A stretch of DNA of 26,867 nucleotides from a virus, in IMG/VR virus record IMGVR_UViG_3300025771_000155, positions 1 to 26,867 of that record; one strand, written 5' to 3'. This document shows positions 2,757 through 21,099 of this stretch, in pieces. The notes under the pieces were generated by a model. It worked only from the letters and a program-made list of their open reading frames with translations, had not been told where the DNA came from and did no database searches. Both the position numbers and the translations under genes were made by a program. Within the stretch, counting starts at the first letter, position 1. Each line of letters begins with the position of its first letter.

Positions 2757-3364
2757 GGGGTAGCGCCTTCTGAATACATTGCTGGTGCTGGGCCAAACCT
2801 GCCGCGCATTTCTTGCTTTTGAGCATCAAGTAGTTTTTTCTCAAACGTACCATCGTAATAGCTTGCCGCTTCCTCATCTCTTGCCCACCTATACAATTCT
2901 GAAAGGGTGCCGTATAGATAAAGGTCTGGATACTTCGTTAAAACGTCGTTAGTCGTGTTTGAATCGCTTAATGCTGTTAGTGATACGTAGTAACTCATTT
3001 CAACCGTGTAGCCGCTGTCTGGTACTCGGTTGAACTCCAATTGTGATGTTACCGTGAAGTATTCTGGGACACCTGAGTTGGGCTCAACTGTCATGGATTC
3101 GGGAGATTTAAAACGAATCTCTCTAGGGTTTGCGCCAACAAGGGTTAATCGTCGCATCTCCAGAAAGTTGTCTGGTAATTGTAGAAACCTGTCTGCTGTT
3201 GGCATCGTTGCCGTTGAGCGTTGCTCGTTTGTTCTTAATTTGAGCCTTGCGTTTATCCTTGCTTCGCATAAATCGATAAAATCGTCTATTACATCACTAA
3301 TGTCTGTTCTGTGTGAGAATCTCTCAACAGCTTGCTTCAGATTCGCGTAGTTATTTAAGGCCAT
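2753..3364 (-). CDS. SU10/P22 gp4-like head-tail adaptor protein
   Basis: This 203-residue protein opens with NYANLKQAVERFSHRTDISDVIDDFIDLCEARINARLKLR, which matches the helical start of the phage adaptor family (SU10 adaptor type: helical region, then a small beta region with 'P.FL.LPDNFLEMRRL'). The adaptor ring joins the portal to the tail. The middle gives LPDNFLEMRRLTL (about residues 63-75); the C-terminus carries a Tyr-rich helix (LYLYGTLSELYRWARDEE) typical of the family. It overlaps the methyltransferase gene by 10 bases and the gp10-like gene by 4. It is separated from the capsid gene by three sugar/methyl-transfer genes and one small gene, which is unusual. Confidence 0.8.
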   Translation of the reverse strand: MALNNYANLKQAVERFSHRTDISDVIDDFIDLCEARINARLKLRTNEQRSTATMPTADRFLQLPDNFLEMRRLTLVGANPREIRFKSPESMTVEPNSGVPEYFTVTSQLEFNRVPDSGYTVEMSYYVSLTALSDSNTTNDVLTKYPDLYLYGTLSELYRWARDEEAASYYDGTFEKKLLDAQKQEMRGRFGPAPAMYSEGATP

Positions 3365-3870
3365 GCTTTAACCACCACGTAAAACCCGCCTGGGGTTTGT
3401 GAATAGGAATGAATGTCGAACCGTTCCCAAATTTTAGGAAGCCACCATCTGAAATCTTCTTGAATGAGGTGAGCGTTTCTACCGTCCGAAAGGACTTTGA
3501 CTGCTGGGCCTGTGTGGATAGTAAAAAACCCAAACTCTTTTGTGACTCTTTTTAAGTCGTCTAGGACGTTATCTAATAACTCAGGTTCAATATGTTCTAG
3601 TACGTCAATGCAGGTAACAAACTGTCTGGGGTTTGGTGTCTCAGACCATTCTGGGCGGGCAGGGTCGTATAACTCTATTTTAACCTTGTGGTTAGGGTTA
3701 ATATTCTGAGCTAGCCTGCCTTTTCCTGCTCCGTAGTCGAGCATTTCTTCAATGTTCAAGGTGTTGATAATGTTTGTTACTAAAGGAGCAAATTGAACCG
3801 AAGCCACCCCATAATTAGGGTTTTCGTGTAGCTTTTCTTGTTCTTCTCTGTATTTTTCACTAATCAGCAT
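3355..3870 (-). CDS. Class I SAM-dependent methyltransferase, small
   Basis: The 171-residue product shows a SAM-binding motif I, LDYGAGKGRL (residues 44-53), an acidic strand-2 end (ELYDPAR, about 66-72), and a motif like CIDVLEHIEPE (87-97), the usual 'DVLEH' of class I methyltransferases. It is compact, without a target-recognition domain of a DNA methylase and without an (N/D)PP(Y/W) motif, so DNA methylation is not indicated. It lies directly after two glycosyltransferase-like genes, overlapping the previous one by 11 bases, which suggests action on a sugar or glycan. Substrate unknown. Confidence 0.8.
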   Translation of the reverse strand: MLISEKYREEQEKLHENPNYGVASVQFAPLVTNIINTLNIEEMLDYGAGKGRLAQNINPNHKVKIELYDPARPEWSETPNPRQFVTCIDVLEHIEPELLDNVLDDLKRVTKEFGFFTIHTGPAVKVLSDGRNAHLIQEDFRWWLPKIWERFDIHSYSQTPGGFYVVVKAWP

Positions 3871-4516
3871 GAGTGGCCAGCCTTAGCTCGTTTCTCCATT
3901 CTCTAGCAAACTCCTGGTCTGCATAACCCTGAAAACATGGAGTCCCTAAAGTAAAATGGACAATCTTTGCGTTTGGGTTTGGGTCGTATTCTCCGACTAG
4001 GTGGTTGTATTCTTTTGGTATCTCACCAATATTGGTGCACCACTCAAACCTGTGCAGGTATTTGCCGCTGGCATTATTCACAACTTCAGGAGTAAGGTTT
4101 TTTACTGGCTGTCGGTAGCAATTAAATAGAATTAGGCTTGACCAGTTTTTCATAGGGTATTCGTGCTGAACATTGCCTAGAAACTTGGTTTTAACCTTTG
4201 ATTTGTAGTCATGCTTAACCACTGCTACATCATCAGTAAGTGACATATAATCTAGTAACTCGTGAATGTCACACCTGACCAGCATATCACAATCCATGAA
4301 TAGGGCGATTCCCTTATAGCCAGCGAGGTAGGGCGTCAAGAATCTTGAAAATGAGAACTCTGTGCTACCGTCCTCTATCCCCCTTGTGAACTCTGGAATG
4401 TTACGTTTATTAATTGGTATGAACTCACACGGCCTCGATGAATGCCTCATTATACTGTTGCATAGAACGTGATAGGCTACCGTTTCCCTTTTGTCGAATC
4501 CTATAAATATTCTCAT
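3860..4516 (-). CDS. Glycosyltransferase, GT-A fold (GT8-like)
   Basis: The product starts MRIFIGFDKRETVAYHVL, the usual N-terminus of a small glycosyltransferase group, and has FMDCDMLV with a DxD metal/sugar-nucleotide motif (D75 and D77 from this start). Later VHFTLGTPCF resembles the C-terminal metal-binding His segment of GT8-like enzymes. An in-frame ATG at 4588 exists, but the start at 4516 is preferred because an AAGGA Shine-Dalgarno stands 6 bases upstream and because homologous-looking sequence begins there. This still leaves a 92-base out-of-frame overlap with the upstream gene. Acceptor unknown; virion or host-surface glycan is possible. Confidence 0.8.
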   Translation of the reverse strand: MRIFIGFDKRETVAYHVLCNSIMRHSSRPCEFIPINKRNIPEFTRGIEDGSTEFSFSRFLTPYLAGYKGIALFMDCDMLVRCDIHELLDYMSLTDDVAVVKHDYKSKVKTKFLGNVQHEYPMKNWSSLILFNCYRQPVKNLTPEVVNNASGKYLHRFEWCTNIGEIPKEYNHLVGEYDPNPNAKIVHFTLGTPCFQGYADQEFAREWRNELRLATHAD

Positions 4517-5807
4517 TAATATCCTTAACTGAGCGTTTAAAGTCTCCCCTATGGAGCTTAACAGAATTGAACCATGGGAATGACTCACCTTCTGAATGGT
4601 ATCTATAACCAGCGTACTCTGGTACTAATACATGACAAGGAACACCAACAGCACCAGCGAAATAGACCACCGTATTACACACTGTAACAACGGCATCCAG
4701 GCAGGAAACAAGGGCTAATAGTTCTTCAAGGTCTGAACCCTTTTTAACTGATCTGGGCCAGTATTTAATGCCGTATTTTTCTAATTCCTTGGCATCTACT
4801 TCTTTGTAGTCTAAGCAAACTAACTGGTAATTTTCTGTAAGTGGTAAGAATGTCTCAAGGGTAGTGGTTCTATACTTCATGCCCGTTTCTTTAGAGCCAC
4901 CCATCATAGAGAATCCTACCACGGGTTTATCACCGTCTAACAATGATGACCACTGCTTAACCCTTTCTGGGTCTGGGGTTAGAATTGGGTTGCCTGGGAA
5001 TGACTTATGGTCGCGCCTAAAGAAATAGGGTAATTGCCCCATTGAGATTTGATAGTCGAACTTATGTTCATCCACCAATGGGCTATGGTCTGAGAACCTA
5101 TTTCCGTATACAGGGCAAGAAAATGAACGGTCAAATATTGAATGCGTTCTTTTGTCTACTTCTAAAATTACATTATTTGTTTCCAATAAATCAGGAACAC
5201 AGGTAGCGAACATGATCTCGTCGCCCACTCCCTGTTCCCCATACACCACCACTGTGCCTTCTTGGCCTTCCCACTCGGGAACACCGTAGTCTCTTTTAAC
5301 GCGCTCTTTAACGCCTTGTGTCATGTAATACTCATCCCACCCTGACCAGTCTCTTAACATGAGTTTAGCTAAACCGCGATTATGTAAAGCTGAGTTTAAA
5401 TTAGGGTCAATCTTTAATGCTCGGTTGCTGTATTCAATGGCTCGTTGAGGTCTGCCCGTTTGAAGATACATCAAGCCTTTGTTGGCAAGTGCTGAAGCGT
5501 TAGACGAGTCTTTTTCTAGTGCCTTGTCGAATATTTTAAGGGCTTTATCTCGGTCAATATTTTCTATTGCCATTCCCATATTAGACCAAATTTCTGAACG
5601 GTTGGGTCTCATTTCTGCACACCGTCTAAAAACGTGATAGGCCAAACCATCTTTTCCAGAATCCAAAAGAATATAACCTGTTAGAAATAGGGCCAGCTCT
5701 CCGGATTCTGTCTCTGGCTCTTCATTCAGAACTTCGTTGCAAATACTTAAAGCTAATTCTGGATTGCTTGAAGCTATGCTTTTAGCTTCTCTAACACGTT
5801 CCATCAT
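4425..5807 (-). CDS. TPR repeats fused to a GT9-like glycosyltransferase domain
   Basis: The 460-residue protein has an N-terminal solenoid of TPR units (about residues 10-155; for example GMAIENIDRDKALKIFDKAL and KGLMYLQTGRPQRAIEYSN) followed by a domain resembling heptosyltransferase/GT9 C-terminal halves. The latter shows VVVYGEQGVGDEIMFATCVP near residue 187 and PVVGFSMMGGSKETG near 295, then DAVVTVCNTVVYFAGAVGVP (about 374-393), the nucleotide-sugar binding end. It starts in an ATGA overlap with the upstream small gene. TPR parts often mediate protein contacts, so a virion-protein acceptor is an idea only. Its last 92 bases also encode the start of the next glycosyltransferase. Confidence 0.8.
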   Translation of the reverse strand: MMERVREAKSIASSNPELALSICNEVLNEEPETESGELALFLTGYILLDSGKDGLAYHVFRRCAEMRPNRSEIWSNMGMAIENIDRDKALKIFDKALEKDSSNASALANKGLMYLQTGRPQRAIEYSNRALKIDPNLNSALHNRGLAKLMLRDWSGWDEYYMTQGVKERVKRDYGVPEWEGQEGTVVVYGEQGVGDEIMFATCVPDLLETNNVILEVDKRTHSIFDRSFSCPVYGNRFSDHSPLVDEHKFDYQISMGQLPYFFRRDHKSFPGNPILTPDPERVKQWSSLLDGDKPVVGFSMMGGSKETGMKYRTTTLETFLPLTENYQLVCLDYKEVDAKELEKYGIKYWPRSVKKGSDLEELLALVSCLDAVVTVCNTVVYFAGAVGVPCHVLVPEYAGYRYHSEGESFPWFNSVKLHRGDFKRSVKDINENIYRIRQKGNGSLSRSMQQYNEAFIEAV

Positions 5808-6170: not shown

Positions 6171-7499
6171 TTACGATGTGGTTAAATCTGTCACCTTACC
6201 TGAACTCGCTTCATTCTTAGAACACAGAGTATACTCAACGATCATCTGGCGTTGTTCACTGTCTCCAGTTTTCGCCAGTTCGTTAAGCTCCATTGGTCGC
6301 AAGTAATTAACAGACCAATAATCCATATCTAAAACAAAAGCAGTCTGGTCTCGTTGGAAACGGTTAGGAACTACTTTTAAAGTTCCAAAGTTTGACTTAT
6401 AAAAGTCTACCGCGCCAATCAACGTAATGTCAGAACCAGCACTAGCTGGTGTTTCAAGTGTAGAGATACCACTAAAACCGCTCACAATAGCACGGTTGAA
6501 AGGGCCAACCATGATAGTTGTGGGGTCTCCGCCCTGAGTCCAGCACTTTTGAATAACGTCATCTAATGAGGCTTTGGTAAATGTACCTGCCACCGTTGAA
6601 TCAGTTGGTGCTGTAGTTGGGATTGATGGAGAACCAGCCGCGCCAGGAGTGGTTTGAGCTGTACCTGTACCTAAAGATGTTTTATTAGTAGATAACCACG
6701 ACTCAAGAGAAGCAAGAGCGCGACCTGTACCAGCACCACCAGCCGAAGCTGCTTGATTCTGGGTAAGGGCAAACTCCATATCACGCTTGATCTCTTTACC
6801 GCGTTTTGCTACTTGGTAGGCTAATTCATCAGATCTACCTGCTTGATCAATTGCTCTAGCAGTACCAGAAACAATAGCCGTTTTTTGCGAGATTTGGCAG
6901 TAGTTAGCAACTCGTGTAGTAGGACTAAGAGTTTTAGCTGTTGGGTTATCACCCTCAATTGCAATGTTACTAGCTGCTGCATCAAGGGTATCTGTTTGCC
7001 ATTCGCTAAGAACTGCAGAAGCAGAACCACGGCCTACACCGTTTAAGAAAGGAGTATCTAACGGACTAATATCGTAAATCATCAGTATTGTTATCGTGGA
7101 TTTTTTAATTGCCACTTCTACATGTTTCCATGCAGCTCAGACTATATCATCACTGTTAGGCCAGTGCTGGGCGCTCGTGGGCGGGTTATTGTTGGGACTC
7201 ACCGCCTAGTCGTTGCACCTTCCAAGATACTAAAACCCATCTTGGCTTGGCTCAGGATTACCCTCGTCTTTACGTTAGGGCTTTCCCTGAATTCACCCAG
7301 TTTTCAAAAGTGCCTTGCTCTATGACATTTACCACAAAGAGCAACTCTTCTTTAGTTATCGTAAATGTCATACTTTTGTCCTAAAGCATCTTTTGGGACT
7401 TGAAAGTATAACGATATGTTGTACTTTGTGTCAATCCATTAAATCTTCACGATTACCCACCGTAGAATAGGTAATAACTGTATTAGTTGGGACTGTCAT
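6171..7499 (-). CDS. Major capsid protein (DUF5309/SU10-type), split by a group I intron
   Basis: The coding sequence is the join of 7434-7499 (22 codons, starting MTVPTNTVITYSTVGNREDL) and 6171-7082, giving 325 residues. The junction reads NREDLMD then MIYDISPLDTPF, restoring the family signature 'NRED L.D.IY.ISP.DTPF' expected in SU10/DUF5309 HK97-fold capsid proteins. A plain ORF would begin at 7115 with a spurious MAIKKSTITIL that is intron sequence. GAGG stands 8 bases before the ATG at 7499. Further family segments are GRGSASAVLSEWQTDTL and the C-terminal LDMDYWSVNYLRPM. It follows the scaffold gene, as expected. Protein assignment is firm; spliced structure is inferred from sequence. 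Confidence 0.88.
7083..7433 (-). ncRNA. Group I intron, ORF-less, within the capsid gene
   Basis: The 351-base insert has the conserved group I core in order. P is near 7293-7278 (TGAATTCAGGGAAA), Q at 7259-7244 (AATCCTGAGCCAAGCC), R at 7221-7205 (AAGGTGCAACGACTAGG) and S near 7149-7136 (ATATAGTC). P7 pairs GACTA (7211-7207) with TAGTC (7144-7140). P6 is CCAAGAT/ATCTTGG and P8 is CACTG/CAGTG. P1 pairs exon GGAT (7437-7434) with GTCC (7399-7396), placing a U-G wobble at the 5' splice site; the intron ends in G (7083). A 12-bp perfect hairpin (7372-7361 with 7332-7321) fills the P2 region. No homing endonuclease gene is present. Confidence 0.9.
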
Positions 7500-7509
7500 T
7501 TTTCATTCC

Positions 7510-8379
7510 TCATAAGCCTAAGTATTGTTTGATTGCGGCCTGAGCATCGTTTCTACTTCCTGTCTTTTTCAGCCTTTCTCTAGCTGAATTTGTTTTAACA
7601 GGTTGAGACTCACCACCTCCGGCTTGTTGGCTCCTTGGTGGTTGCTTGGCACGCTTGGTTTCTATCGGCTTTGAACTTATCTCATCGAACAATGCAGCCT
7701 TACGTATAACCTTTATGAGCCTGTGATCGTACACAGACGCCATATCATTTTCGCTGAATCCAGCCTCGGTTAACGTTTTAGCCATTTTCTTGAGATCAGC
7801 ATTCATCTTTCCATCATCAAGCCATTCTGGCACTGCTTCCTTCCATTTAGCTTGTTCTGCTTGGATTAATTCCTGCTGTTTTTTGCTCATCTCTTGAGTG
7901 AGTTGGTCTTTATACTTCTTAACCTTATCACGTTTAGAGTCGAACTTGTTCCGCTGCCGATAGTATTCTTCAGGGTCGGACTCTCTCAGCTCTTTCATTT
8001 CATCGCTATCCAGGTATTGAGCCTCACCGTACAACAGAGATTCAATTTCCTGTAACTGACTAGCAATTTCATTTTCTTTAGCTTCAAGCGCCTTTCGCCT
8101 TTCCGCAACTTCAGAGGTCTTCTTTCGGTAGTCGGCTTCCATCATTAACCCTTTGGGGATTAAATCAAGATCAACGTCTTCCGTCAGTACATCGAACTCT
8201 ATGTCGCGGTCGTTTAGTTTCGCTTTCACTCGTCTGGGTTTGGATTCTGTGTCGCTCTGGGGCGTTTCCTCCGTTTCCTTCTTAGTTTCTACAGGGTCTT
8301 CACCCTTTGCTTCGGTTGGCTTATCAGCTCCGAGAAATGACCGTAAACGGTCGTGTACGGCTCCGCTAGGGTTGGCCAT
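7510..8379 (-). CDS. Capsid scaffolding protein
   Basis: This 289-residue protein is highly charged and mostly helical, with a long coiled-coil-like stretch from about residue 85 to 180 (for example AERRKALEAKENEIASQLQE). Low-complexity Pro/Glu/Thr segments lie near the N-terminus (about 20-48) and Gln/Ser/Gly-rich sequence near the C-terminus. It ends in a basic helix (about 265-289), where scaffolds contact coat protein. A segment KAKLNDRDIEFDVLTEDVDLDLIPKG (about 52-77) is common in phage scaffolds of this group. It lies between portal and capsid genes, with GAGG before the ATG. Confidence 0.82.
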   Translation of the reverse strand: MANPSGAVHDRLRSFLGADKPTEAKGEDPVETKKETEETPQSDTESKPRRVKAKLNDRDIEFDVLTEDVDLDLIPKGLMMEADYRKKTSEVAERRKALEAKENEIASQLQEIESLLYGEAQYLDSDEMKELRESDPEEYYRQRNKFDSKRDKVKKYKDQLTQEMSKKQQELIQAEQAKWKEAVPEWLDDGKMNADLKKMAKTLTEAGFSENDMASVYDHRLIKVIRKAALFDEISSKPIETKRAKQPPRSQQAGGGESQPVKTNSARERLKKTGSRNDAQAAIKQYLGL

Positions 8380-8384
8380 AAAAT

Positions 8385-8630
8385 CTACCTCATGATTCGT
8401 TTAATGTTTAACTCGTTTAAATCGTCTACTTTACCTTCTCTAATGTGATGCTGTAGAACTCTTTCAAAAGCTGCTACGGCTCGCAACATGTAATAAAGGT
8501 CTTCTCTTAAGTCTGCTTGGTCGTGTGCGCTTAGAGAAATATTCTTATAACAGGCTTCCCTTATTTCATTGATTGCAGACTTTATAAAGTCATTGTCTAG
8601 TGTGGCTTTGGCTTTTTCTGCTCTGTTCAA
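8385..8630 (-). CDS. Small helical protein between portal and scaffold, 81 aa
   Basis: The gene starts at a TTG (8628-8630) that overlaps the portal stop as TTGA, with AGGGG about 7 bases upstream. There is no better ATG near. The product is all-helical and charged (MNRAEKAKATLDNDFIKSAI), without membrane segments. A similarly small helical protein is often found at this position in P22/SU10-like head modules. Function unknown. Confidence 0.72.
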   Translation of the reverse strand: MNRAEKAKATLDNDFIKSAINEIREACYKNISLSAHDQADLREDLYYMLRAVAAFERVLQHHIREGKVDDLNELNIKRIMR

Positions 8631-10600
8631 ATCAATGCCCCTGGCACATTTTTATTCGTGTCTGCTTCAATCTTTGTAAGTTCGGCAGCAATCTTGTCAT
8701 CGTGCTGCATCTGATCTTGTATAAGTTTGGCTTGGTCAACCATGGCCTTTTCACGAATCTTCGCTATTTCTCTCTGAGTAGTAGCTTCTTGTTTAATTGC
8801 TTCAGCTTCGGCCAGCGGGTTTTGCATATTTTGCTGCATGGCCTGATTTTCTCTAGTGAGTCTCTCAATCTCAGCTATGAGTAACTGCTGAGGTACTTCG
8901 GGGTCATTAAAATACAACTCAATCTCTTTAAGGCCCACCTCTTTAACTAGCTGTGAATAAGCGTTGTATAACTTCTTGCTGTCAGCAAGGGGTAACCCTA
9001 ATTCCATGGCCGACTTAATCTCAGATATTAGATAACCAATGTTGGCGACTTTCTCTTGTCTATCTCCAGAACCCACTCCAACATCAATAGTGCAATAGGT
9101 TTTATGCTTCCACTCTGCAGGGTCAATGACTTTGGTTTCACCGAATAATCGGATTTGGATAGATTCATCTTGATACTTTGAAGCAAGAGCAGCAATCTTT
9201 TCGAATATTTCTCTTATTGCACCATCTGCAGCAAGTCTAGCAACAGTCTCAACACGCATCTGAGCCGCGTCCCTCTGTCCCACAAAGGCTACTGCTGTCT
9301 TGTTAAGAATCTCCGTATCTACGCCTTGAGAATACCTTGTAACCCCTGAGCGAACCTCTCTCATTGTGTCCGAGTATTCTATTGCTTGGAGTATTTGCGG
9401 TGTCTGGTTGTCAGTTGGGATAGGCATAAGTGAATCACCAATTGGCCCACTCCCATCAACTCTCACAACACCACCAGGTCTAGGCGTTAGAAGGTCGTCC
9501 AGTTGAACACGGTCATTCACAACCATTCTATTGAAGTTTGAAGCGTATATGTTGTTCAGCATTTGTCTAAGTAGGTGAGACTTTAAGTATTGAATGTCTG
9601 CTACTTGGTCTGCTGGACATGTCCCGATAGCCTTGTGTGGCATTGGAACGGGAACCATCACACAGAAAGGATGGTCATCAACACGCCTTTTTTCTAGTAC
9701 CTGGTTGCCAGCGTAGAAGACCTGCCACAGCTCGCTGATACCGTCCTCATCAGCATCCATGTAGACATAATATTCACCCAAATAAATTACATCTTTTGAA
9801 CTGTCATTAGTTGGGTTTGATTCATAGTCTTCTTCTAAATCGTAATTCCTAGCTAGCTTTACCTCGTTGTCTAGTTCTTCATCTTTTCCTAGTGATTTTA
9901 CTTGTTCCTTGCTGAAACCCATTTGAATTAGCTCAGAACGGGTTTTAGGTGATCTTTGGCCTATGAATGGGGGTTCTTCAAAATCTCTCGCTCTACGTGC
10001 TATTAGAAGCTCATCGGGTGGGATATTCTCAATCTTTGGGCGTCCAGTTGATTCTACCCATTCACCCTCAACATCTGTAAGACCGTCCTTGTTCTTTCTA
10101 GCCTTTGTAATCCTGAACTTTGGCTCCATCTTGAGCCGCATAACTTCCATATCATCTAGATTATTATACTCATCTGCCTCTATTTCTTCTGAGTCATCCC
10201 AAAATACTTTTACCACTCCTGTGTATTGGAGTAGGGCATCTTTAAACATGTTATATAGTATGGTGTTGCCTTTGTGTTGATTAGCAAAAACCCACTGGCA
10301 GTACTCGGTTTTATCTTCTGCCTCTTGATCGAATCTTGAATCTGTAGCGGTGAATTTGGCAACGTACTTACCTTGGGTAAACGTCCTCATCAGATGGGGT
10401 ATCATAGTCTCTACAACGTCTGAAACGTCTGATGTGACCATCTGTGATAAGCCTTCAATCTCATCACCAAACGGTCTTTGATTATAGTAATCGAGCAGGG
10501 TTTTCCGGTTGGAGTTGATCTTGCTCCCTTCCCCCAGAAACCCCAGAGCCATTCTTTCTTCGGCTCCTACGATTTGTGCTATTTCCTGATCTGTCTTCAA
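8627..10600 (-). CDS. Portal protein (P22-like family)
   Basis: The 657-residue product forms the dodecameric DNA-entry ring at the capsid vertex. The N-terminal pattern DQEIAQIVGAEERMALGF, then LLDYYNQRPFGDEIEGLSQMVTSDVSDVVE, is typical of P22-like portals, as is SDTMREVRSGVTRYSQG (about residues 408-424), followed by NKTAVAFVGQRDAAQMRVE. The C-terminus (about 570-640) is a Gln/Glu/Ala-rich helix, the barrel or crown region. The start is a TTG at 10598-10600. An in-frame stop lies three codons upstream and the next ATG (10552) would cut into the conserved start, so TTG is preferred. It overlaps the small coiled-coil gene by 119 bases. Confidence 0.88.
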   Translation of the reverse strand: MKTDQEIAQIVGAEERMALGFLGEGSKINSNRKTLLDYYNQRPFGDEIEGLSQMVTSDVSDVVETMIPHLMRTFTQGKYVAKFTATDSRFDQEAEDKTEYCQWVFANQHKGNTILYNMFKDALLQYTGVVKVFWDDSEEIEADEYNNLDDMEVMRLKMEPKFRITKARKNKDGLTDVEGEWVESTGRPKIENIPPDELLIARRARDFEEPPFIGQRSPKTRSELIQMGFSKEQVKSLGKDEELDNEVKLARNYDLEEDYESNPTNDSSKDVIYLGEYYVYMDADEDGISELWQVFYAGNQVLEKRRVDDHPFCVMVPVPMPHKAIGTCPADQVADIQYLKSHLLRQMLNNIYASNFNRMVVNDRVQLDDLLTPRPGGVVRVDGSGPIGDSLMPIPTDNQTPQILQAIEYSDTMREVRSGVTRYSQGVDTEILNKTAVAFVGQRDAAQMRVETVARLAADGAIREIFEKIAALASKYQDESIQIRLFGETKVIDPAEWKHKTYCTIDVGVGSGDRQEKVANIGYLISEIKSAMELGLPLADSKKLYNAYSQLVKEVGLKEIELYFNDPEVPQQLLIAEIERLTRENQAMQQNMQNPLAEAEAIKQEATTQREIAKIREKAMVDQAKLIQDQMQHDDKIAAELTKIEADTNKNVPGALI

Positions 10601-10676
10601 GAGTTTTCACTCGCTCTTTTAATTCGTTTAATTCTGCTCTTAAGGCTTTAATCTCTGCTGCTGTTCTAAAATCCAT
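10482..10676 (-). CDS. Small coiled-coil protein overlapping the portal start, 64 aa
   Basis: The ATG (10674-10676) overlaps the terminase TAA in a TAATG junction. The first half (MDFRTAAEIKALRAELNELK and on to about residue 29) has clear Leu heptads of a coiled coil. The second half is Arg/Gly/Asn-rich and read over the portal N-terminal coding sequence in another frame (119 bases shared). The non-overlapping first 25 codons and the junction suggest a real gene. The composition of the second half follows from the portal frame, so it may be unconstrained. Function unknown. Confidence 0.55.
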   Translation of the reverse strand: MDFRTAAEIKALRAELNELKERVKTLEDRSGNSTNRRSRRKNGSGVSGGREQDQLQPENPARLL

Positions 10677-11986
10677 TAAGCCATGCCTATTTTTGGCTGT
10701 TGTAGTTTTCTCTTTTGTCTGGGTTCTTCAAAGCATATCGCTGAAAGGCCGTGAGAGTCTGCTGAGTGACTAGCCCAGTCGTGATTGGGCCCTAAGTCTA
10801 TACCGCGCTTATCGTCTATTTTGGCGCTGTAATATGCCAGTGCAGAACAACCAGATTCACACTTTTTACTAAACCACATTTTATGAAACAGATTTCTTGT
10901 TTGTTCGATTCGCTGTTTAGCTGCGCCCTTGCCTTGATTCGGAACGACTACTACAGGATAACCAGCATCCTCAAAGGCTTTTCGATAGTTAATATCGATT
11001 ACTTTATCGTTTGTCTCACCGTCATGAGGGAGCCATATTTTAGCTCTGTCTGGCGTGTAACCTTCAGACCGTAACCATGTCAAATGATGCGCTATGTCCT
11101 GGCCTTGGGATTCGTAGTGGTTCAGGTAGTTAATTTTCTGCGGCTCTATTTGACTAGCCCAGAATACAAAGTTGTCGCTCTTTGCACCTGTTCCACCAAT
11201 GTCTGCGTAAAGCCTTACAACCTTGAGCGGATTCTCTGGAACGTCTACCAGCCAGCGCCCTTCAGCCCTGGCTTTAATGATGTGTTTCGTGTAGTAAGAG
11301 CCTGGCTTAACTTCTAAATACTCGCCTTCCCAAACATGCCCATAAGTGTCTGGTCTTTTCTCTTTATCGTCGAGTCGCTCTTGTTCGAGTGACGTTAGAT
11401 GCCACCATGGATTATCACGCCAGTTTATCTCAACAACTATTGAGTCTTTAGGGGGGTCTTGTCTAAACCTTTGGTCTGTTGGGCTTCCCTTTCTCTCAGG
11501 GTTCCATGTTATCCAAATCTCCGAATCTTGCTCTCGAACTGTTGGGACTACTTTTCGCCAGCACTCGTCCGTGACTGGTTCAGCCTCATCTACCCAAAGT
11601 ATTAAGATTCTACTCTTAGACTTTATTGAGTCTATGTTGTGTCTTAAACCTTGAAAGACATACTGAATTGAACCGCACTTTGTCCTTATGTACTTCTCGC
11701 CACAGTCATAAAACTGGCTTAAGTATTCGTCTTCTTGTATTGAGAATTTAATCTCTGCAAAAGAGGATTCATCTAAAGAGTTTTGTAATTCTCGACCACA
11801 AAGAATAATACCTTGCTTACCTTCAGAAGCTAGACTTATCCCCCTGGCTGCGGTCATCTTTGCAAAAGTTCTGGTCTTTCCCGAACCCCTGCCACCGTAG
11901 GCTAATTTATACCTACAAAGGTTCCATTCACCGTCTTTTATAAAAACAGGTATTAATTTACTTGGTATCTCTATTTGATGCATCAA
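10676..11986 (-). CDS. terL: Terminase large subunit (Terminase_3 type)
   Basis: The DNA-packaging motor ATPase and nuclease, 436 residues. Walker A is GGRGSGKT (31-38), Walker B is RILILWVDEAE (126-136), and ITWNP (159-163) is the coupling motif region. The C-terminal RNase-H-like nuclease has YADIGGTGAKSDN (260-272, first Asp D262), WLPHDGE (318-324) and HDWASHSADS (402-411), providing the acidic metal ligands. The start is ATG ATG at 11986, within the end of the TerS-like gene (29-base overlap). All key residues are present, so it should be active. Family assignment is strong; packaging style (pac or cos) cannot be read. Confidence 0.93.
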   Translation of the reverse strand: MMHQIEIPSKLIPVFIKDGEWNLCRYKLAYGGRGSGKTRTFAKMTAARGISLASEGKQGIILCGRELQNSLDESSFAEIKFSIQEDEYLSQFYDCGEKYIRTKCGSIQYVFQGLRHNIDSIKSKSRILILWVDEAEPVTDECWRKVVPTVREQDSEIWITWNPERKGSPTDQRFRQDPPKDSIVVEINWRDNPWWHLTSLEQERLDDKEKRPDTYGHVWEGEYLEVKPGSYYTKHIIKARAEGRWLVDVPENPLKVVRLYADIGGTGAKSDNFVFWASQIEPQKINYLNHYESQGQDIAHHLTWLRSEGYTPDRAKIWLPHDGETNDKVIDINYRKAFEDAGYPVVVVPNQGKGAAKQRIEQTRNLFHKMWFSKKCESGCSALAYYSAKIDDKRGIDLGPNHDWASHSADSHGLSAICFEEPRQKRKLQQPKIGMA

Positions 11987-16348: not shown

Positions 16349-16562
16349 TTGGCACCTCCCACATTCCTTGTAATCTTAGCTGCTCGATTTTACTCTGCTC
16401 TGGTATTTTCTTATTTAATTTTCTTAGCCTCTGAGTGCATGAGACACACTTGCCGCTTTTCGTGTAATACTTTCGTGATCTGCACCCTTCAACCTTGCAT
16501 GGCTCCCCGATGCGCGTGTGGCTCGATTCCTTTCGATGAACTGGTTTAAACTGGCCCGTCAT
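16338..16562 (-). CDS. Small zinc-ribbon protein, 74 aa
   Basis: The product has four Cys in the spacing C-x4-C-x11-C-x2-C (CKVEGC at about residues 22-27, then CVSC at 39-42) with Arg/Lys-rich flanks, as in small zinc ribbons that bind nucleic acid. The rest is basic and helical (TQRLRKLNKKIPEQSKIEQL). It overlaps the AlpA-like gene upstream by 17 bases. Role likely in early gene regulation or DNA metabolism; partner unknown. Confidence 0.65.
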   Translation of the reverse strand: MTGQFKPVHRKESSHTRIGEPCKVEGCRSRKYYTKSGKCVSCTQRLRKLNKKIPEQSKIEQLRLQGMWEVPNVR

Positions 16563-16905
16563 TGTATCCCCTCTTTCCGTGAACTAGATAAAGTTCAACA
16601 TCACTCACTAACCAGCTTTTAGCCTCCATTCTCACATTCCGAGACATATTATCTGTGAGTGCTGGCGCGAATCTACCTGTTGTTATTTTTTCTCTTAAAT
16701 CTTTTTCGTTAATTTTATACTCTCTAAGTATCTCGTAATAACTTATTGTTTCTGTGGACTTTGGTTTTAATACTTGGATTACACCCCCGTTTTTTAAAAA
16801 CTCCCTTGTTAGTTCCTCCAGTTCTGCACTTCTCATTCTTTTGACTTCCCAGCATTCAAGAAAAAAGACCTCGTGTTCTTCTTGCATTTCAACAGAAATA
16901 GACAC
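16546..16905 (-). CDS. AlpA/excisionase-like winged-HTH DNA-binding protein
   Basis: The C-terminal half (about residues 53-107) reads ISYYEILREYKINEKDLREK, then TGRFAPAL, then SWLVSDVELYL. This is the layout of MerR-superfamily AlpA/excisionase domains: a helix-turn-helix, a Gly-Arg-Phe wing, and a 'W..SDVE.YL' closing helix. The N-terminal half is helical and acidic with no known domain. Such proteins act as phage regulators or recombination directionality factors, but no integrase is seen in this window. The start at 16905 overlaps the preceding small gene by 17 bases. Confidence 0.6.
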   Translation of the reverse strand: MSISVEMQEEHEVFFLECWEVKRMRSAELEELTREFLKNGGVIQVLKPKSTETISYYEILREYKINEKDLREKITTGRFAPALTDNMSRNVRMEAKSWLVSDVELYLVHGKRGYNDGPV

Positions 16906-17095
16906 AACAGGGATTCAGGACACATTTTTTAAGCAGTTCTAGCTCCTTGCCCCGATCAATGCCTAAGTCTTGTAATAGTAATTCTAAATCCTTTAAAACT
17001 TCTTCTTTGTCAAAACCCTCTGAGCTAATAGTTCTGTGTTCGTCTTGATATGATGCCCTAAAAATATTCCCTTTTTTATTCACCGTTATTTGCAT
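16889..17095 (-). CDS. Hypothetical protein, 68 aa
   Basis: The product starts MQITVNKKGNIFRASYQDEH and has an amphipathic helix (FDKEEVLKDLELLLQDLGID) followed by a Cys-containing C-terminus (KKCVLNPCCVYFC). It overlaps ninG by 10 bases. The beta-strand start plus a helix resembles small HicB-like or anti-restriction folds, but the similarity is too weak to name. Function unknown. Confidence 0.6.
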   Translation of the reverse strand: MQITVNKKGNIFRASYQDEHRTISSEGFDKEEVLKDLELLLQDLGIDRGKELELLKKCVLNPCCVYFC

Positions 17096-17700
17096 TCCAT
17101 TTTCTCCATGTTTTGTTTCTTTAGTATGTTAGCCTCTTTTCTGTAGTAGTCTCTAATTTCTCTTAGTTCGTCGTGTGTGTATTTCATTGGTGGCTCTGGT
17201 GATTCTAATTTTAACACACGTTGCAAACCTATTTTTCTTATTAAGTTCTCTCTGTAGCTTCCGCTGTCGCCTTGCTTGAACCTGTTGCAACTAGATAACT
17301 GTTTGTGCACGTTGTCAGCGTTAAATCTCTTTTCAGGGTATGCGCCTACACTCAAATAATGGCCTGCGTCCCAGGGTGAACCAGTTATGTATTCTTTATC
17401 TATTGTGCCACCGCAACAAATACAAGTATCAAACCAATCCCTTTGAACTATCCATCTATTGAACTCTCTTTGCGCTTCCTTTGTTAACTGTCCCTTACCC
17501 TTTATTAACTCCTTGCGTTTTCTTAAATCCCTCTTAACGCTTTTCCGTTCTTCATCCTCCTTTTTCTTTAAAATTTTCTGGCTGTACTTAAAACCGCACG
17601 AAGGTGAGCACCATTGTTGCAAACTGTTTTTCTTTTCATACTCTCCCTTGCATATTTTACATTTATATTTTTTCGGCTTTTTCTTTCTCCCTTTCTTCAC
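17086..17700 (-). CDS. ninG: NinG/Rap-like recombination protein
   Basis: Lambda NinG (Rap) resolves recombination intermediates and promotes Red-dependent recombination. This 204-residue protein has the N-terminal zinc finger (C14, C17, C31, C35), then a Lys-rich coiled helix (40-75), and CICCGG (93-98). The family core is SPWDAGHYLSVGAYPEKRFN (108-127) followed by NVHKQ (130-134), SSCN (136-139) and YRENLIRKIG (149-158). Length matches the family. It pairs functionally with the annealase encoded on the plus strand at 25845. The start overlaps the preceding small gene by 38 bases. Confidence 0.9.
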   Translation of the reverse strand: MKKGRKKKPKKYKCKICKGEYEKKNSLQQWCSPSCGFKYSQKILKKKEDEERKSVKRDLRKRKELIKGKGQLTKEAQREFNRWIVQRDWFDTCICCGGTIDKEYITGSPWDAGHYLSVGAYPEKRFNADNVHKQLSSCNRFKQGDSGSYRENLIRKIGLQRVLKLESPEPPMKYTHDELREIRDYYRKEANILKKQNMEKMECK

Positions 17701-17848
17701 TCATCCTCCTTGTATAATCTTTGTAGTCATCCTTGAATTTATTTCGCCACCATATTTCCCAGTTATAACTTTTACCTGGCACCTTTTGTTTTCGTATGCG
17801 CCACACATAACGAGCAGCGCATAGTTTTAGGTGTTCGTAATCAGTCAT
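17663..17848 (-). CDS. Hypothetical basic protein, 61 aa
   Basis: The ATG (17846-17848) overlaps the stop of the NAMPT-family gene as ATGA, and the 3' end overlaps ninG by 38 bases. The product is rich in Lys, Arg, Trp and Tyr (RYVWRIRKQKVPGKSYNWEI) and ends in a charged helix, as in small nucleic-acid-binding proteins. No family recognised. Coupling to the previous gene is the best evidence that it is translated. Confidence 0.55.
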   Translation of the reverse strand: MTDYEHLKLCAARYVWRIRKQKVPGKSYNWEIWWRNKFKDDYKDYTRRMSEEREKEKAEKI

Positions 17849-19317
17849 AAATATTTATACAATCTATCTCTAATATTGCAAAATTCTTCTTCATTTTTTA
17901 TTATTCCGTTCTCAAAAACAACCTTCAATGAACCTTCCATTTCTTCTGATTCACTTACGTTGTCATATAATTTGTATTCACCATCTTCGAAATTAACTTT
18001 AAGCAATCCTTTTGCGGATTTCTTGCTACCATTATCCGTTGCTGGGTCTTTAAAAATGCTTTTTCTTTCCCCGTTAACAACCCCACTAGTTGCTTTTACA
18101 GCAAAACCAAAGCTATCCCTAGTTACATATTGATAAGTGTAAGACCCAACACCAAACACAACATTGTCAGACGAGAATCCTTTTAATTTTAATAACTCAA
18201 GTATTCTTTTAGCTCTATCAAGAGTAATTGAGTCACCATAAATTAGGCCAATCTTTTGATCTAATCTTTTAAATCCTTTTTCAGTTTCGGTGCCTCCAAA
18301 AGTATCCCATAGGCATCCAACAGCACCCATGTATTCAGGGCTACCAGCTTTCGCAGATTCATCCCCGCAAATAATCTTTACCGGGTCACCACTATCTGGA
18401 CGAATCACAACTTTACCGTTTCGCTCATTTATTGTTTTCTTTAGCTTGGGAAGGTAATCTGTAATAACTTTCCAAAAATCCCAAGTATCAGAAACAATTG
18501 AAACAATTCCTTCAGGATATGTTTCGGTTATTAATCTTTTGAAAGTATCAAACTCACCTTGTTTTGAACCCATGCACATCACCGAATGTTCGGTAGCAGG
18601 TACAGAAAATCCAATAGGTTCACTTCCAAAGTAATAATCTTCAATTAAATCTATTGCAGGTACTGTGTCCGTTCCGAGAAAGCTAGTTAAATGAGCTGCT
18701 CCGCTTAAAGCTGCATCGTAAATGCTTGACATGCCTCTGAAAGAGAAATCGTGAGCTTGAAAGTTTATAAATTCTAAGTTTGCCCCTGTTTCCTCTGCGT
18801 ATTTTGTCAACAGCCTTTTGTATTCATATGCAGTAGTCGCTGATGTTATCGGCTTCCACATATAGCAAGATAAAACAGTTTCTATGTAATTAGTCAGCCA
18901 GAAGAATTCAGGGTGAGTGTTTACTATTGTTAACAAAGGTACACCTATTGGGACTCTTGACCCTTCAGGCAAGGCTTTTATTTTTATTGGCAAATACCCT
19001 AACTCATGCAATTTTCTTATATGTTTAAAATCGAAACAGTTTTCATGTAAAGAGCTGAACATTCTTCTTTTATATTTTTCAATAACATGTTCAACATCAA
19101 GGCTGAAGAAATTATTATTCCATTCATCAATAAGGAAACTTTTTAAAAAGTACTGCAAACCAAAAAAAACAACTTTATGGTCAAAGTCGCCTAGAACATT
19201 GGCGAGCTTATCGCTTCTAGCCGATAAGTTAGAATAAACTTCGGTTGTTCCTGCTGGGTATTGGTTTCTGTGATCAGCTTTATAAAAATCTATTGCTGTT
19301 AATGGGTTAATGTACAT
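17845..19317 (-). CDS. nadV: NAMPT-family enzyme (NadV; candidate nicotinamide ADP-ribosyl transferase, Namat)
   Basis: The 490-residue product is a full-length nicotinamide phosphoribosyltransferase-family enzyme. It shows FYKADHRNQYPAGT (11-24), HDFSFRGMSS (189-198), SVPATEH with the catalytic His (H244), VSDTWDFW (275-282) and RPDSGDP (306-312). The glycine loop binding the phosphates reads GVGSYTYQ (389-396) instead of the GSGGGLLQ of cellular NAMPT. Adjacent to a PRPP-synthetase-family gene two bases upstream. In the phage NARP1 pathway the homologous pair makes ADPR-pyrophosphate and joins it to nicotinamide, rebuilding NAD+ that host defences destroyed. Activity as classical NadV (NMN synthesis) remains possible. 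The sequence is visibly more A+T-rich than the head genes. Confidence 0.9.
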   Translation of the reverse strand: MYINPLTAIDFYKADHRNQYPAGTTEVYSNLSARSDKLANVLGDFDHKVVFFGLQYFLKSFLIDEWNNNFFSLDVEHVIEKYKRRMFSSLHENCFDFKHIRKLHELGYLPIKIKALPEGSRVPIGVPLLTIVNTHPEFFWLTNYIETVLSCYMWKPITSATTAYEYKRLLTKYAEETGANLEFINFQAHDFSFRGMSSIYDAALSGAAHLTSFLGTDTVPAIDLIEDYYFGSEPIGFSVPATEHSVMCMGSKQGEFDTFKRLITETYPEGIVSIVSDTWDFWKVITDYLPKLKKTINERNGKVVIRPDSGDPVKIICGDESAKAGSPEYMGAVGCLWDTFGGTETEKGFKRLDQKIGLIYGDSITLDRAKRILELLKLKGFSSDNVVFGVGSYTYQYVTRDSFGFAVKATSGVVNGERKSIFKDPATDNGSKKSAKGLLKVNFEDGEYKLYDNVSESEEMEGSLKVVFENGIIKNEEEFCNIRDRLYKYL

Positions 19318-19319
19318 TT

Positions 19320-20159
19320 TTAAAATTTTCCTAGAACAGTTACAAAATCAGTTTCTTCTATCGAATTGAATGGAATGTATACAAATATGTGCTTAATGTT
19401 CTCCCTTAGCGAATCAAATCCATTTGAAAAAATTCCGTGAGTTACATACAGATATATGTCCCTTGCTCCATTTTTTTTCAATTCTTCAGATAGAGCAATA
19501 AACGTCCTTCCGCCGTCGCATATGTCGTCTATTATTATTAAGTCTTTTCCATTTACATCACCTCCAACAGAAACCTTATCAATGGAGCCGTCCAAATGGT
19601 TTCTAATCTTTTCACAATAAACAACGCTCATCTCATATATTTTTTCAAGAGGCTCAACTTTTTCTCTAGACCCCTTATCTGGGCTTATAATAGTTAATCC
19701 TTTGTTATTAATTAATTGACCAAGTCCAGAATTTTTAACAAATTCGTATTGAAAATTAGGAAGTGAATTATGTATTAATTCTAAAGCCACATCAGAATGA
19801 GGATCCCATATTTCTACACAATGAAAATTCATTGAATTTATTATGTTTGCTACTACTTCCAAGCTGAAAGCTTCTCCATAATTGCAAACCCTATCTTGTC
19901 GTGCATAAGGTAAGTAGGGGCACACAAGTCTTATTTTGGAATTTGGTGCTATTCTTCTAACTGCATCAACGGTAAGAATCATAAAAATTAAATCATCTGA
20001 AGACTTAATGTGAGATTTAATTACATTATGACCTATATTAACTTTTGCTTCAGATATGTTTACGTTGCATTCGCCCCCAGAGAATTTAGTGCATACCACC
20101 TGTTTTCCGTTAAGCTTAATATATGGCATAAATCTATGCCAATTTTCCTTAGCTCCCAT
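19320..20159 (-). CDS. prs: PRPP-synthetase-family kinase (candidate ADPR-PP synthetase, Adps)
   Basis: The 279-residue product follows the ribose-phosphate pyrophosphokinase layout: PYLPYARQDR (81-90), YGEAFSLEVVANII (94-107), WDPHSD (118-123, the metal-binding segment), SPDKGSREK (159-167), a YCEKIRN segment where the Lys/Arg flexible loop lies (181-187), and the PRPP loop LIIIDDICDGGRT (207-219). It is shorter than cellular Prs (about 310-315 residues). GGGAG stands 10 bases before ATG 20159; an inner ATG at 20129 is an alternative. Paired with the NAMPT-family gene, it fits the NARP1 system, where this enzyme transfers pyrophosphate to ADP-ribose. Confidence 0.88.
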   Translation of the reverse strand: MGAKENWHRFMPYIKLNGKQVVCTKFSGGECNVNISEAKVNIGHNVIKSHIKSSDDLIFMILTVDAVRRIAPNSKIRLVCPYLPYARQDRVCNYGEAFSLEVVANIINSMNFHCVEIWDPHSDVALELIHNSLPNFQYEFVKNSGLGQLINNKGLTIISPDKGSREKVEPLEKIYEMSVVYCEKIRNHLDGSIDKVSVGGDVNGKDLIIIDDICDGGRTFIALSEELKKNGARDIYLYVTHGIFSNGFDSLRENIKHIFVYIPFNSIEETDFVTVLGKF

Positions 20160-20173
20160 AACTTTTAAACTCC

Positions 20174-20626
20174 CTATGCTGTCATGCCTTGATCTTGTCT
20201 CATACCGTAATACACCGAGTCCTCTGGTATAGTTATTGGTATTCTGTAGTCAATGCAGAAATTATGTATACATGTCATAAAATTAAAAAACTGCTTAACT
20301 GATAAATCACTCGTGTGTTTTGGTATAGTCCTGTGCATTACCCTTTTTTCTGCGCAATCCCAAAACGGCTCAACTATTGTCGGTAGATACATTCCTTTTA
20401 GTTTAGCTTTTATCGTCTCCTTACTGACTGCTGCACCGCATTCCAAATGTATTTTACCTACAGATTTAAAATAACGTGATATTTCATCGCACCACATGTG
20501 GAGCAGGGAGTTTTGGTCTTTGCTTCTGCCATCATCCAAAGTTACAACCGTTGGGCATGAAATAGAATCTACTGCATCTAATGCATCTTGCTTTGAGCTG
20601 CTTCCTGTAACGTTAATTCTAATCAT
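20174..20626 (-). CDS. ninB: NinB (Orf)-like recombination mediator
   Basis: The product has TVVTLDDGRSKDQNSLLHMW (about residues 26-45), containing the 'RS.DQN...W' signature of lambda NinB/Orf and related phage proteins, then EISRYF and a helical C-terminal half with MHRTIPKHTSDLSVKQFFNF (about 96-115) as in the family. NinB loads recombinases at single-strand junctions. Length (150) is usual. It fits with NinG and the Red-beta-like protein in the same phage. The assignment is by motif; the C-terminal half is not lambda-like. Confidence 0.75.
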   Translation of the reverse strand: MIRINVTGSSSKQDALDAVDSISCPTVVTLDDGRSKDQNSLLHMWCDEISRYFKSVGKIHLECGAAVSKETIKAKLKGMYLPTIVEPFWDCAEKRVMHRTIPKHTSDLSVKQFFNFMTCIHNFCIDYRIPITIPEDSVYYGMRQDQGMTA

Positions 20627-20886: not shown

Positions 20887-21099
20887 TTAATCTTGTCTAA
20901 ATCTAGCATCATGCAATGGCCATCCCCGTCTCTCTAAAACTTCCCGTCTTAAAATATTCAACTCTTTGCTGAAGTGAAAATAAAGCGTGATTATATCACC
21001 GTCCAACTCCACATTAAATGATCCCAATATAATCTCGTCTTCTCCTTCTCCGTATGTTATGTAAGTTTCCTGCCCTGGTCTGCGTGTTATTTTTAACAT
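20887..21099 (-). CDS. csrA: CsrA-like RNA-binding regulator
   Basis: CsrA binds GGA motifs in mRNA leaders, mostly over ribosome binding sites. This 70-residue protein starts MLKITRRPGQE, matching the MLxLTRRxGE start of CsrA. It has five beta-strand-like stretches ending IITLYFHFSKELNILRREVL (about residues 36-55), which matches 'VRIGV.AP.EV.V.REEI' including the RNA-contacting Arg (R51/R52) and Glu. It is slightly longer than host CsrA (61), with extra residues in the central loops and a basic tail. Phage-borne CsrA could retarget host or phage translation. Confidence 0.72.
   Translation of the reverse strand: MLKITRRPGQETYITYGEGEDEIILGSFNVELDGDIITLYFHFSKELNILRREVLERRGWPLHDARFRQD

Follow-up and report, generated by a model that had tools for sequence, protein, structure and literature searches.

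A predicted NARP1 NAD+ reconstitution gene pair in the nin-like region of a small tailed phage

Introduction

Do two adjacent genes of a small tailed phage, one of the PRPP-synthetase family (adps) and one of the NAMPT family (namat), encode an NAD+ reconstitution system of the NARP1 type or do they serve conventional salvage of nicotinamide? Under the NARP1 mechanism, a host defence would cleave NAD+ to ADP-ribose and nicotinamide, Adps would move pyrophosphate from ATP onto ADP-ribose to form ADPR-PP, and Namat would join nicotinamide and ADPR-PP into NAD+ in a single step without NMN. As NAD+ would be made in one step from ADPR-PP, no NMN adenylyltransferase would be needed. A homologous pair of phage ICP1 (i.e. 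orf228/229) restores NAD+ and defeats Nezha (PMC11559045), and the pairs of phage SPbetaL1 and of Paenibacillus foliorum work both in vitro and in cells, countering Kongming and SPARSA, respectively (PMC12774641). Among small phages, NadV-like genes have been reported for about 2% (PMC9503650). The pair studied here is located in an IMG/VR virus record, the whole of which was analysed (i.e. a linear fragment of 26,867 bases, hereafter the window).

Results

Both genes of the pair are on the minus strand. The first, adps (19320-20159), encodes a putative ADP-ribose pyrophosphate synthetase of 279 aa, and the second, namat (17845-19317), a putative nicotinamide ADP-ribose transferase of 490 aa. 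Each ORF starts with ATG and is uninterrupted, the gap between them is 2 bases (19318-19319) and a GGGAG sequence is found ~10 nt 5' of the adps start codon. The products matched Pribosyltran_N/Pribosyl_synth and NAPRTase plus NAMPT_N, respectively, above the curated Pfam cut-offs, and were assigned by PHROGs as a ribose-phosphate pyrophosphokinase and a nicotinamide phosphoribosyl transferase. The initial annotation had described a PRPP-synthetase-family gene and a NAMPT-family gene two bases apart; coordinates, families and spacing were all confirmed by these ORF, Pfam and PHROGs results. Scans for promoters and terminators gave a signal no higher than in shuffled sequence. A toxin-antitoxin reading (i.e. 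ShosT/PsyrT) was considered from PADLOC output for the pair and its neighbours and was dropped, the weak C-terminal PRTase matches being taken to reflect a shared fold.

The association of the two families was examined in 79 viral and 44 bacterial loci that had been collected with the NAMPT-type protein alone as query. A same-strand Prs-family gene was present in 72 of the viral and 39 of the bacterial loci, and those without such a partner were mostly at contig ends. Pairing of Prs- and NAMPT-family genes is far beyond chance.

The pair is flanked by homologues of NinB and NinG. A NinB/Orf-like recombination mediator (20174-20626, minus strand; phrog_72, E 2.5e-18) lies directly upstream of adps. 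Downstream, a 61-aa ORF (17663-17848, minus strand) with no family in Pfam or PHROGs shares 4 bases with the end of namat and is followed by NinG/Rap (17086-17700, minus strand; PF05766, 163.6 bits). The pair may be expressed together with the nin-like genes. PHROGs also identified, all on the minus strand, TerL (10676-11986), a portal (8627-10600), a scaffold (7510-8379) and a major head protein (6171-7115), and the record further encodes head-closure proteins and an annealing protein of the Bet/RecT type. The pair is carried by a small tailed, podovirus-like phage that has nin-type genes. Both genes and the same downstream flank recur on L002, a second contig of this virus, at 99.97% identity from window position 20319 down to 12801, so that a single error of assembly does not account for the linkage of the pair to phage genes. 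The nearest homologues of the pair are chromosomal, as would be expected if the contig were a fragment of a bacterial chromosome and the pair a NARP1 operon of the host, but the phage structural and recombination genes sharing the contig, together with the repeated linkage in the second contig, make such an origin barely credible.

The GC content is 32-38% in the region of the pair versus about 39-44% in the structural genes. The relatives of the head and portal proteins are in Pelagibacter, rhizobial and methylotroph phages, all at <50% identity. A nucleotide search with the first 24 kb of the window returned no match among 50,697 phage genomes, and a profile search of the linear fragment found no phage integrase (PF00589). 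Several other features of the window and its sister contig were observed. A 47-base stretch outside the gene pair (16891-16937) is missing from the second contig. Two genes upstream of NinB, a 70-aa ORF (20887-21099, minus strand) had a CsrA match of 22.5 bits, below the cut-off of 27, and is possibly a CsrA-like phage RNA-binding protein. A 119-aa ORF (16546-16905, minus strand) matched the SutA RNA-polymerase-binding domain at 23.3 bits, below the cut-off of 29.3. Between the head and adaptor genes, positions 3355-5807 of the minus strand encode a methyltransferase-like protein, a 242-aa phrog_28018 protein of no assigned function and a 460-aa TPR protein, cargo that is unusual inside a structural module.

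The first enzyme was compared with housekeeping Prs by profile score, phylogeny and individual residues. The window Adps scored 147 bits to TIGR01251, within the Adps band; in an internal control of eight bacterial NARP1 genomes, the NARP1-linked genes scored 133-166 bits and the housekeeping Prs, found in seven of the genomes, 347-425 bits. A 149-row tree placed the window protein in a 15-row set of Adps homologues (support 98) and split off eight typical housekeeping Prs at 99, with support of only 71 for the root branch, which includes one long divergent row. The phylogenetic comparison of Adps with Prs proposed in the initial annotation thus places the window protein with the Adps homologues and apart from typical housekeeping Prs. 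In comparison to E. coli Prs, the ATP and catalytic positions are kept (i.e. RQDR, H121, K184, R186 and D211-D212) while changes of the Adps type are found at HS for HA, V124 for Q and DGGRTF for DTGGTL, the stretches DPHSDV, KIRN and DDICDGGRTF all being of the Adps type. The last of these, the ribose-phosphate loop (residues 211-220; 19500-19529, minus strand), contains G216, shared by 127 of 139 homologues (T/S in Prs), and F220, shared by 137 of 139 (L/I in Prs). In PRPP synthetases, the loop at the DTGGTL position holds the 5'-phosphate of ribose-5-phosphate. As it is this loop that is changed, the Adps sequence would fit a substrate whose 5' group is bulkier. Structure prediction (pLDDT 90.3) gave the full PRPP-synthetase fold, with a Z of 23.6 over 257 residues. 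No Adps structure exists (PMC12774641), and the substrate specificity suggested for the window protein is alignment-based.

For the second enzyme, the best matches by sequence among solved structures were 9w5x and 9w5w at 535 bits, with mammalian NAMPT at about 260; both entries are depositions of SPbetaL1 Namat (accessions per PMC12774641). The predicted model had a mean pLDDT of 88.9, and its closest fold was also 9w5x (TM 0.93, 53% identity). All of the SPbetaL1 catalytic residues (i.e. F189, R192, D215, H245, R306, D308, R399, D13 and Y15) are identical in the window Namat. The residue tables for the two proteins agree with the earlier statement that both genes keep their catalytic motifs. 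Only three differences from SPbetaL1 Namat were observed in the core or NAD-contact positions, namely Ala362 to Ser, Phe392 to Tyr and Arg40 to Lys, and Ser occupies the Ala362 position in 102 of 111 other Namats. The NAMPT_N scores were 41-44 bits for the window protein, 27-32 bits for three Namat-type proteins and 93-138 bits for six true cellular Nampt.

The residues of the selectivity clamp were then compared. Clamp-helix residues select ADPR-PP, and the Namat motif has been defined as GSX-Phi-X-Phi-X-Phi-TRD with aromatics at positions 3 and 7 (PMC12774641). The window protein reads GSYTYQYVTRD at residues 391-401 (18115-18147, minus strand) and has both aromatics (i.e. Y393 and Y397). 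The motif was missing from all six phage NadV controls, and the corresponding stretch of six cellular Nampt-type proteins is GMGGxLLQ. In the clamp loop, an Arg stacks or, where Lys or Tyr is present, the following residue does so (PMC12774641). The window Namat has Lys37-Leu38, and a Leu in this position cannot pi-stack, although only one other pair is more frequent among 112 Namats; the loop differs in this respect both from SPbetaL1, with its stacking Arg40, and from the Bas63 type, with Lys followed by an aromatic residue.

A 118-row tree placed the window protein on the Namat side of a branch (support 100) separating the Namat clade of 112 rows from phage NadV. A careful 44-row tree to which cellular Nampt had been added gave the Namat clade 100/100 support and a branch length of 1.85, so that in the suggested comparison of Namat with NadV and Nampt the window protein again lies with Namat. 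Neither protein of the pair groups with its counterparts of cellular salvage (i.e. housekeeping Prs and PRPP-type Nampt).

The next solved structure after SPbetaL1 Namat was 9ke8, the NMN-bound NadV of Haemophilus ducreyi (HdNadV; L218, NC_005329.1, plasmid pNAD1, 3828-5315). Expression of this enzyme in E. coli raises intracellular NMN by 7.4-fold (PMC6095924). In the tree, HdNadV nests among the Namats, next to that of SPbetaL1 (57% identity). As a PRPP-using enzyme sits within the Namat clade, membership of the clade alone is no proof of ADPR-PP use. In HdNadV, the clamp is GAQTYQRNTRD, in which Gln and Arg occupy the positions of the two aromatics, and a search of the 5.6-kb plasmid found no Prs-family gene. 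HdNadV appears to be a natural case of loss or reversion inside the Namat clade; it goes unmentioned in the Namat structure paper (PMC12774641). Judged from the residues and gene content, ADPR-PP and PRPP behaviour appear to be separated by the clamp residues and the Adps partner, both of which the window has.

HdNadV also bears on whether the phage pair performs conventional nicotinamide salvage, in which Prs would supply PRPP, NadV would produce NMN and an NMN adenylyltransferase of the host would complete NAD+, as in a NARP2-like system without its own adenylyltransferase. The enzyme families would be the same, Namat can still form NMN from PRPP in vitro (PMC12774641) and an NMN producer is known from within the clade. 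Both clamp aromatics are, however, present in the window protein and absent from HdNadV and all other NadV tested, which mostly read GMGGxLLQ, and the window enzyme, unlike plasmid-borne HdNadV, is accompanied by a partner whose loop residues are of the Adps and not the Prs type. Conventional salvage is accordingly highly improbable. The absence of a visible NMN adenylyltransferase had been cited earlier as a sign of NARP1 rather than NARP2, and the profile search agrees: PF01467 had no match in the record, a linear fragment, and matched in 14 of 14 control genomes. Thus, the arrangement that defines NARP2 (i.e. NadM or NadR beside NadV) was not found in this fragment.

The gene pair is very probably a NARP1 NAD+ reconstitution system. 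This interpretation, first put forward in the initial annotation, draws support from clade, clamp-helix residues, Adps-type loop residues and score bands; the pair would be expected to perform the two NARP1 reactions and may protect the phage against NAD-depleting defences.

The origin of the pair was examined through its relatives. In both trees, the window genes group with pairs from Alphaproteobacteria, Cyanobacteria, Verrucomicrobiota and Bdellovibrionota and with three other viral contigs (L003, L004 and L005). The window Namat shares 63-68% identity, and the window Adps 40-47%, with the bacterial members, and the nearest genuine named phages reach about 50-54% for Namat. By sequence, the window pair belongs with the NARP1 pairs of bacterial chromosomes and apart from the characterised phage pairs. 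The records of the related bacteria are mostly MAGs, and several of the contigs have clearly chromosomal neighbours (e.g. an RND efflux pump and an ABC transporter). An 'Acinetobacter phage' whose Namat is 62% identical was not counted as phage evidence on account of its chromosomal neighbours. This record (L124, CAKLQF020000015.1, 'Acinetobacter phage MD-2021a') has the chromosomal genes fepC, an AraC regulator and methyltransferase/MTHFR and, beside adps-namat, a gene resembling NrtR; it looks like a mislabelled bacterial contig. In the related viral contig L003, a RyR-domain (PF02026) protein is encoded at 6795-7829, 306 bases downstream of namat, a layout matching the RyDEP arrangement of PMC13232231; the RyR profile had no match in the window record, and the control likewise matched nowhere.

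An NrtR-like gene (i.e. Nudix plus winged helix) was present within the stretch in 28 of the 30 bacterial loci with room on both sides versus none of the 79 viral loci with room, and a profile search for NrtR (PF21906) found none in the window record. Counted at or near adps-namat, an NrtR-like regulator occurred in 35 of 44 chromosomal NARP1 loci (L141-L184). Five bacterial loci (L147, at 7492-7977, L152, L162, L165 and L176) have a Macro-domain gene at or near the pair. The NrtR family senses ADP-ribose (PMC9503650). No publication linking NrtR with NARP1 was found in the literature covered, which for NARP1 comprised PMC12774641, PMC11559045 and PMC13232231.

The NrtR-like neighbour of the chromosomal pairs, the closest relatives of the window genes, points to a housekeeping origin, and the phage pair could by extension use NARP1 chemistry for general recycling of NAD+ and ADP-ribose during infection (i.e. 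auxiliary metabolism) in place of counter-defence. The phage copy, however, lacks NrtR, the phage pairs tested to date serve in counter-defence and a fitness cost in the absence of the defence is reported for NrsAB (PMC11559045), making a purely metabolic role unlikely. Most simply, an ancestor of the phage may have acquired the enzyme pair without the regulator. We tentatively propose, at slightly less than even chances, that the phage took both catalytic genes from a NARP1 operon of a chromosome, one linked to NrtR and responsive to ADP-ribose, and lost the regulator, such that the pair would now be under nin-region control.

Discussion

The window pair is a clear further example of the known NARP1 and not a new system. 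It resembles SPbetaL1 NARP1 of a Bacillus phage (WIT26982 and WIT26983; Namat PDB 9W5W/9W5X) in gene order, near-zero spacing and NAD-site residues, and the clamp helices carry the same motif (GSFTYQYNTRD in SPbetaL1). Identities are, however, 53% for Namat and 30% for Adps, the clamp loop has Lys in place of Arg and the Adps loop reads DGGRTF where SPbetaL1 has SSFGGTF. The anti-Nezha system NrsAB of ICP1 (i.e. orf228/orf229) is likewise a two-gene operon of the same families with a clamp identical to that of the window, but shares only 51% and 35% identity and belongs to a virulent phage of about 126 kb. Podovirus ctKR88 (MW202524, 42.6 kb) is also a small podovirus with a NARP1 pair; its Namat is 53% identical, and its pair has a repressor and RusA as neighbours and no nin genes beside it.

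Among cellular sequences, the chromosomal loci L141-L150 (alphaproteobacterial, cyanobacterial and verrucomicrobial) are closest to the window, falling in the same clade in both trees. Chromosomal NARP1 is usually found beside an NrtR-like regulator and sometimes a Macro-domain gene, whereas the phage copy is without NrtR. One chromosomal bacterial pair, pfNARP1 of Paenibacillus foliorum, has been shown to be active (PMC12774641). H. ducreyi NadV (pNAD1; PDB 9KE8/9KEO) also lies in the Namat clade and is 48.6% identical to the window protein over 98% of the latter, yet converts PRPP to NMN, lacks the clamp aromatics and has no adps on its plasmid.

A well-supported NARP1 pair is added for a small podovirus-like phage, the modestly unusual points being the nin-region location in a small phage and the chromosomal type of the pair. 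For the field, clamp residues and an Adps partner may tell ADPR-PP from PRPP enzymes and clade membership does not, and an NrtR-like neighbour marks the chromosomal copies and is absent beside the viral ones. If the proposed acquisition is true, chromosomal NARP1 would be the source for at least this phage lineage, and the presence or absence of NrtR would be a simple marker of host versus viral NARP1 copies.
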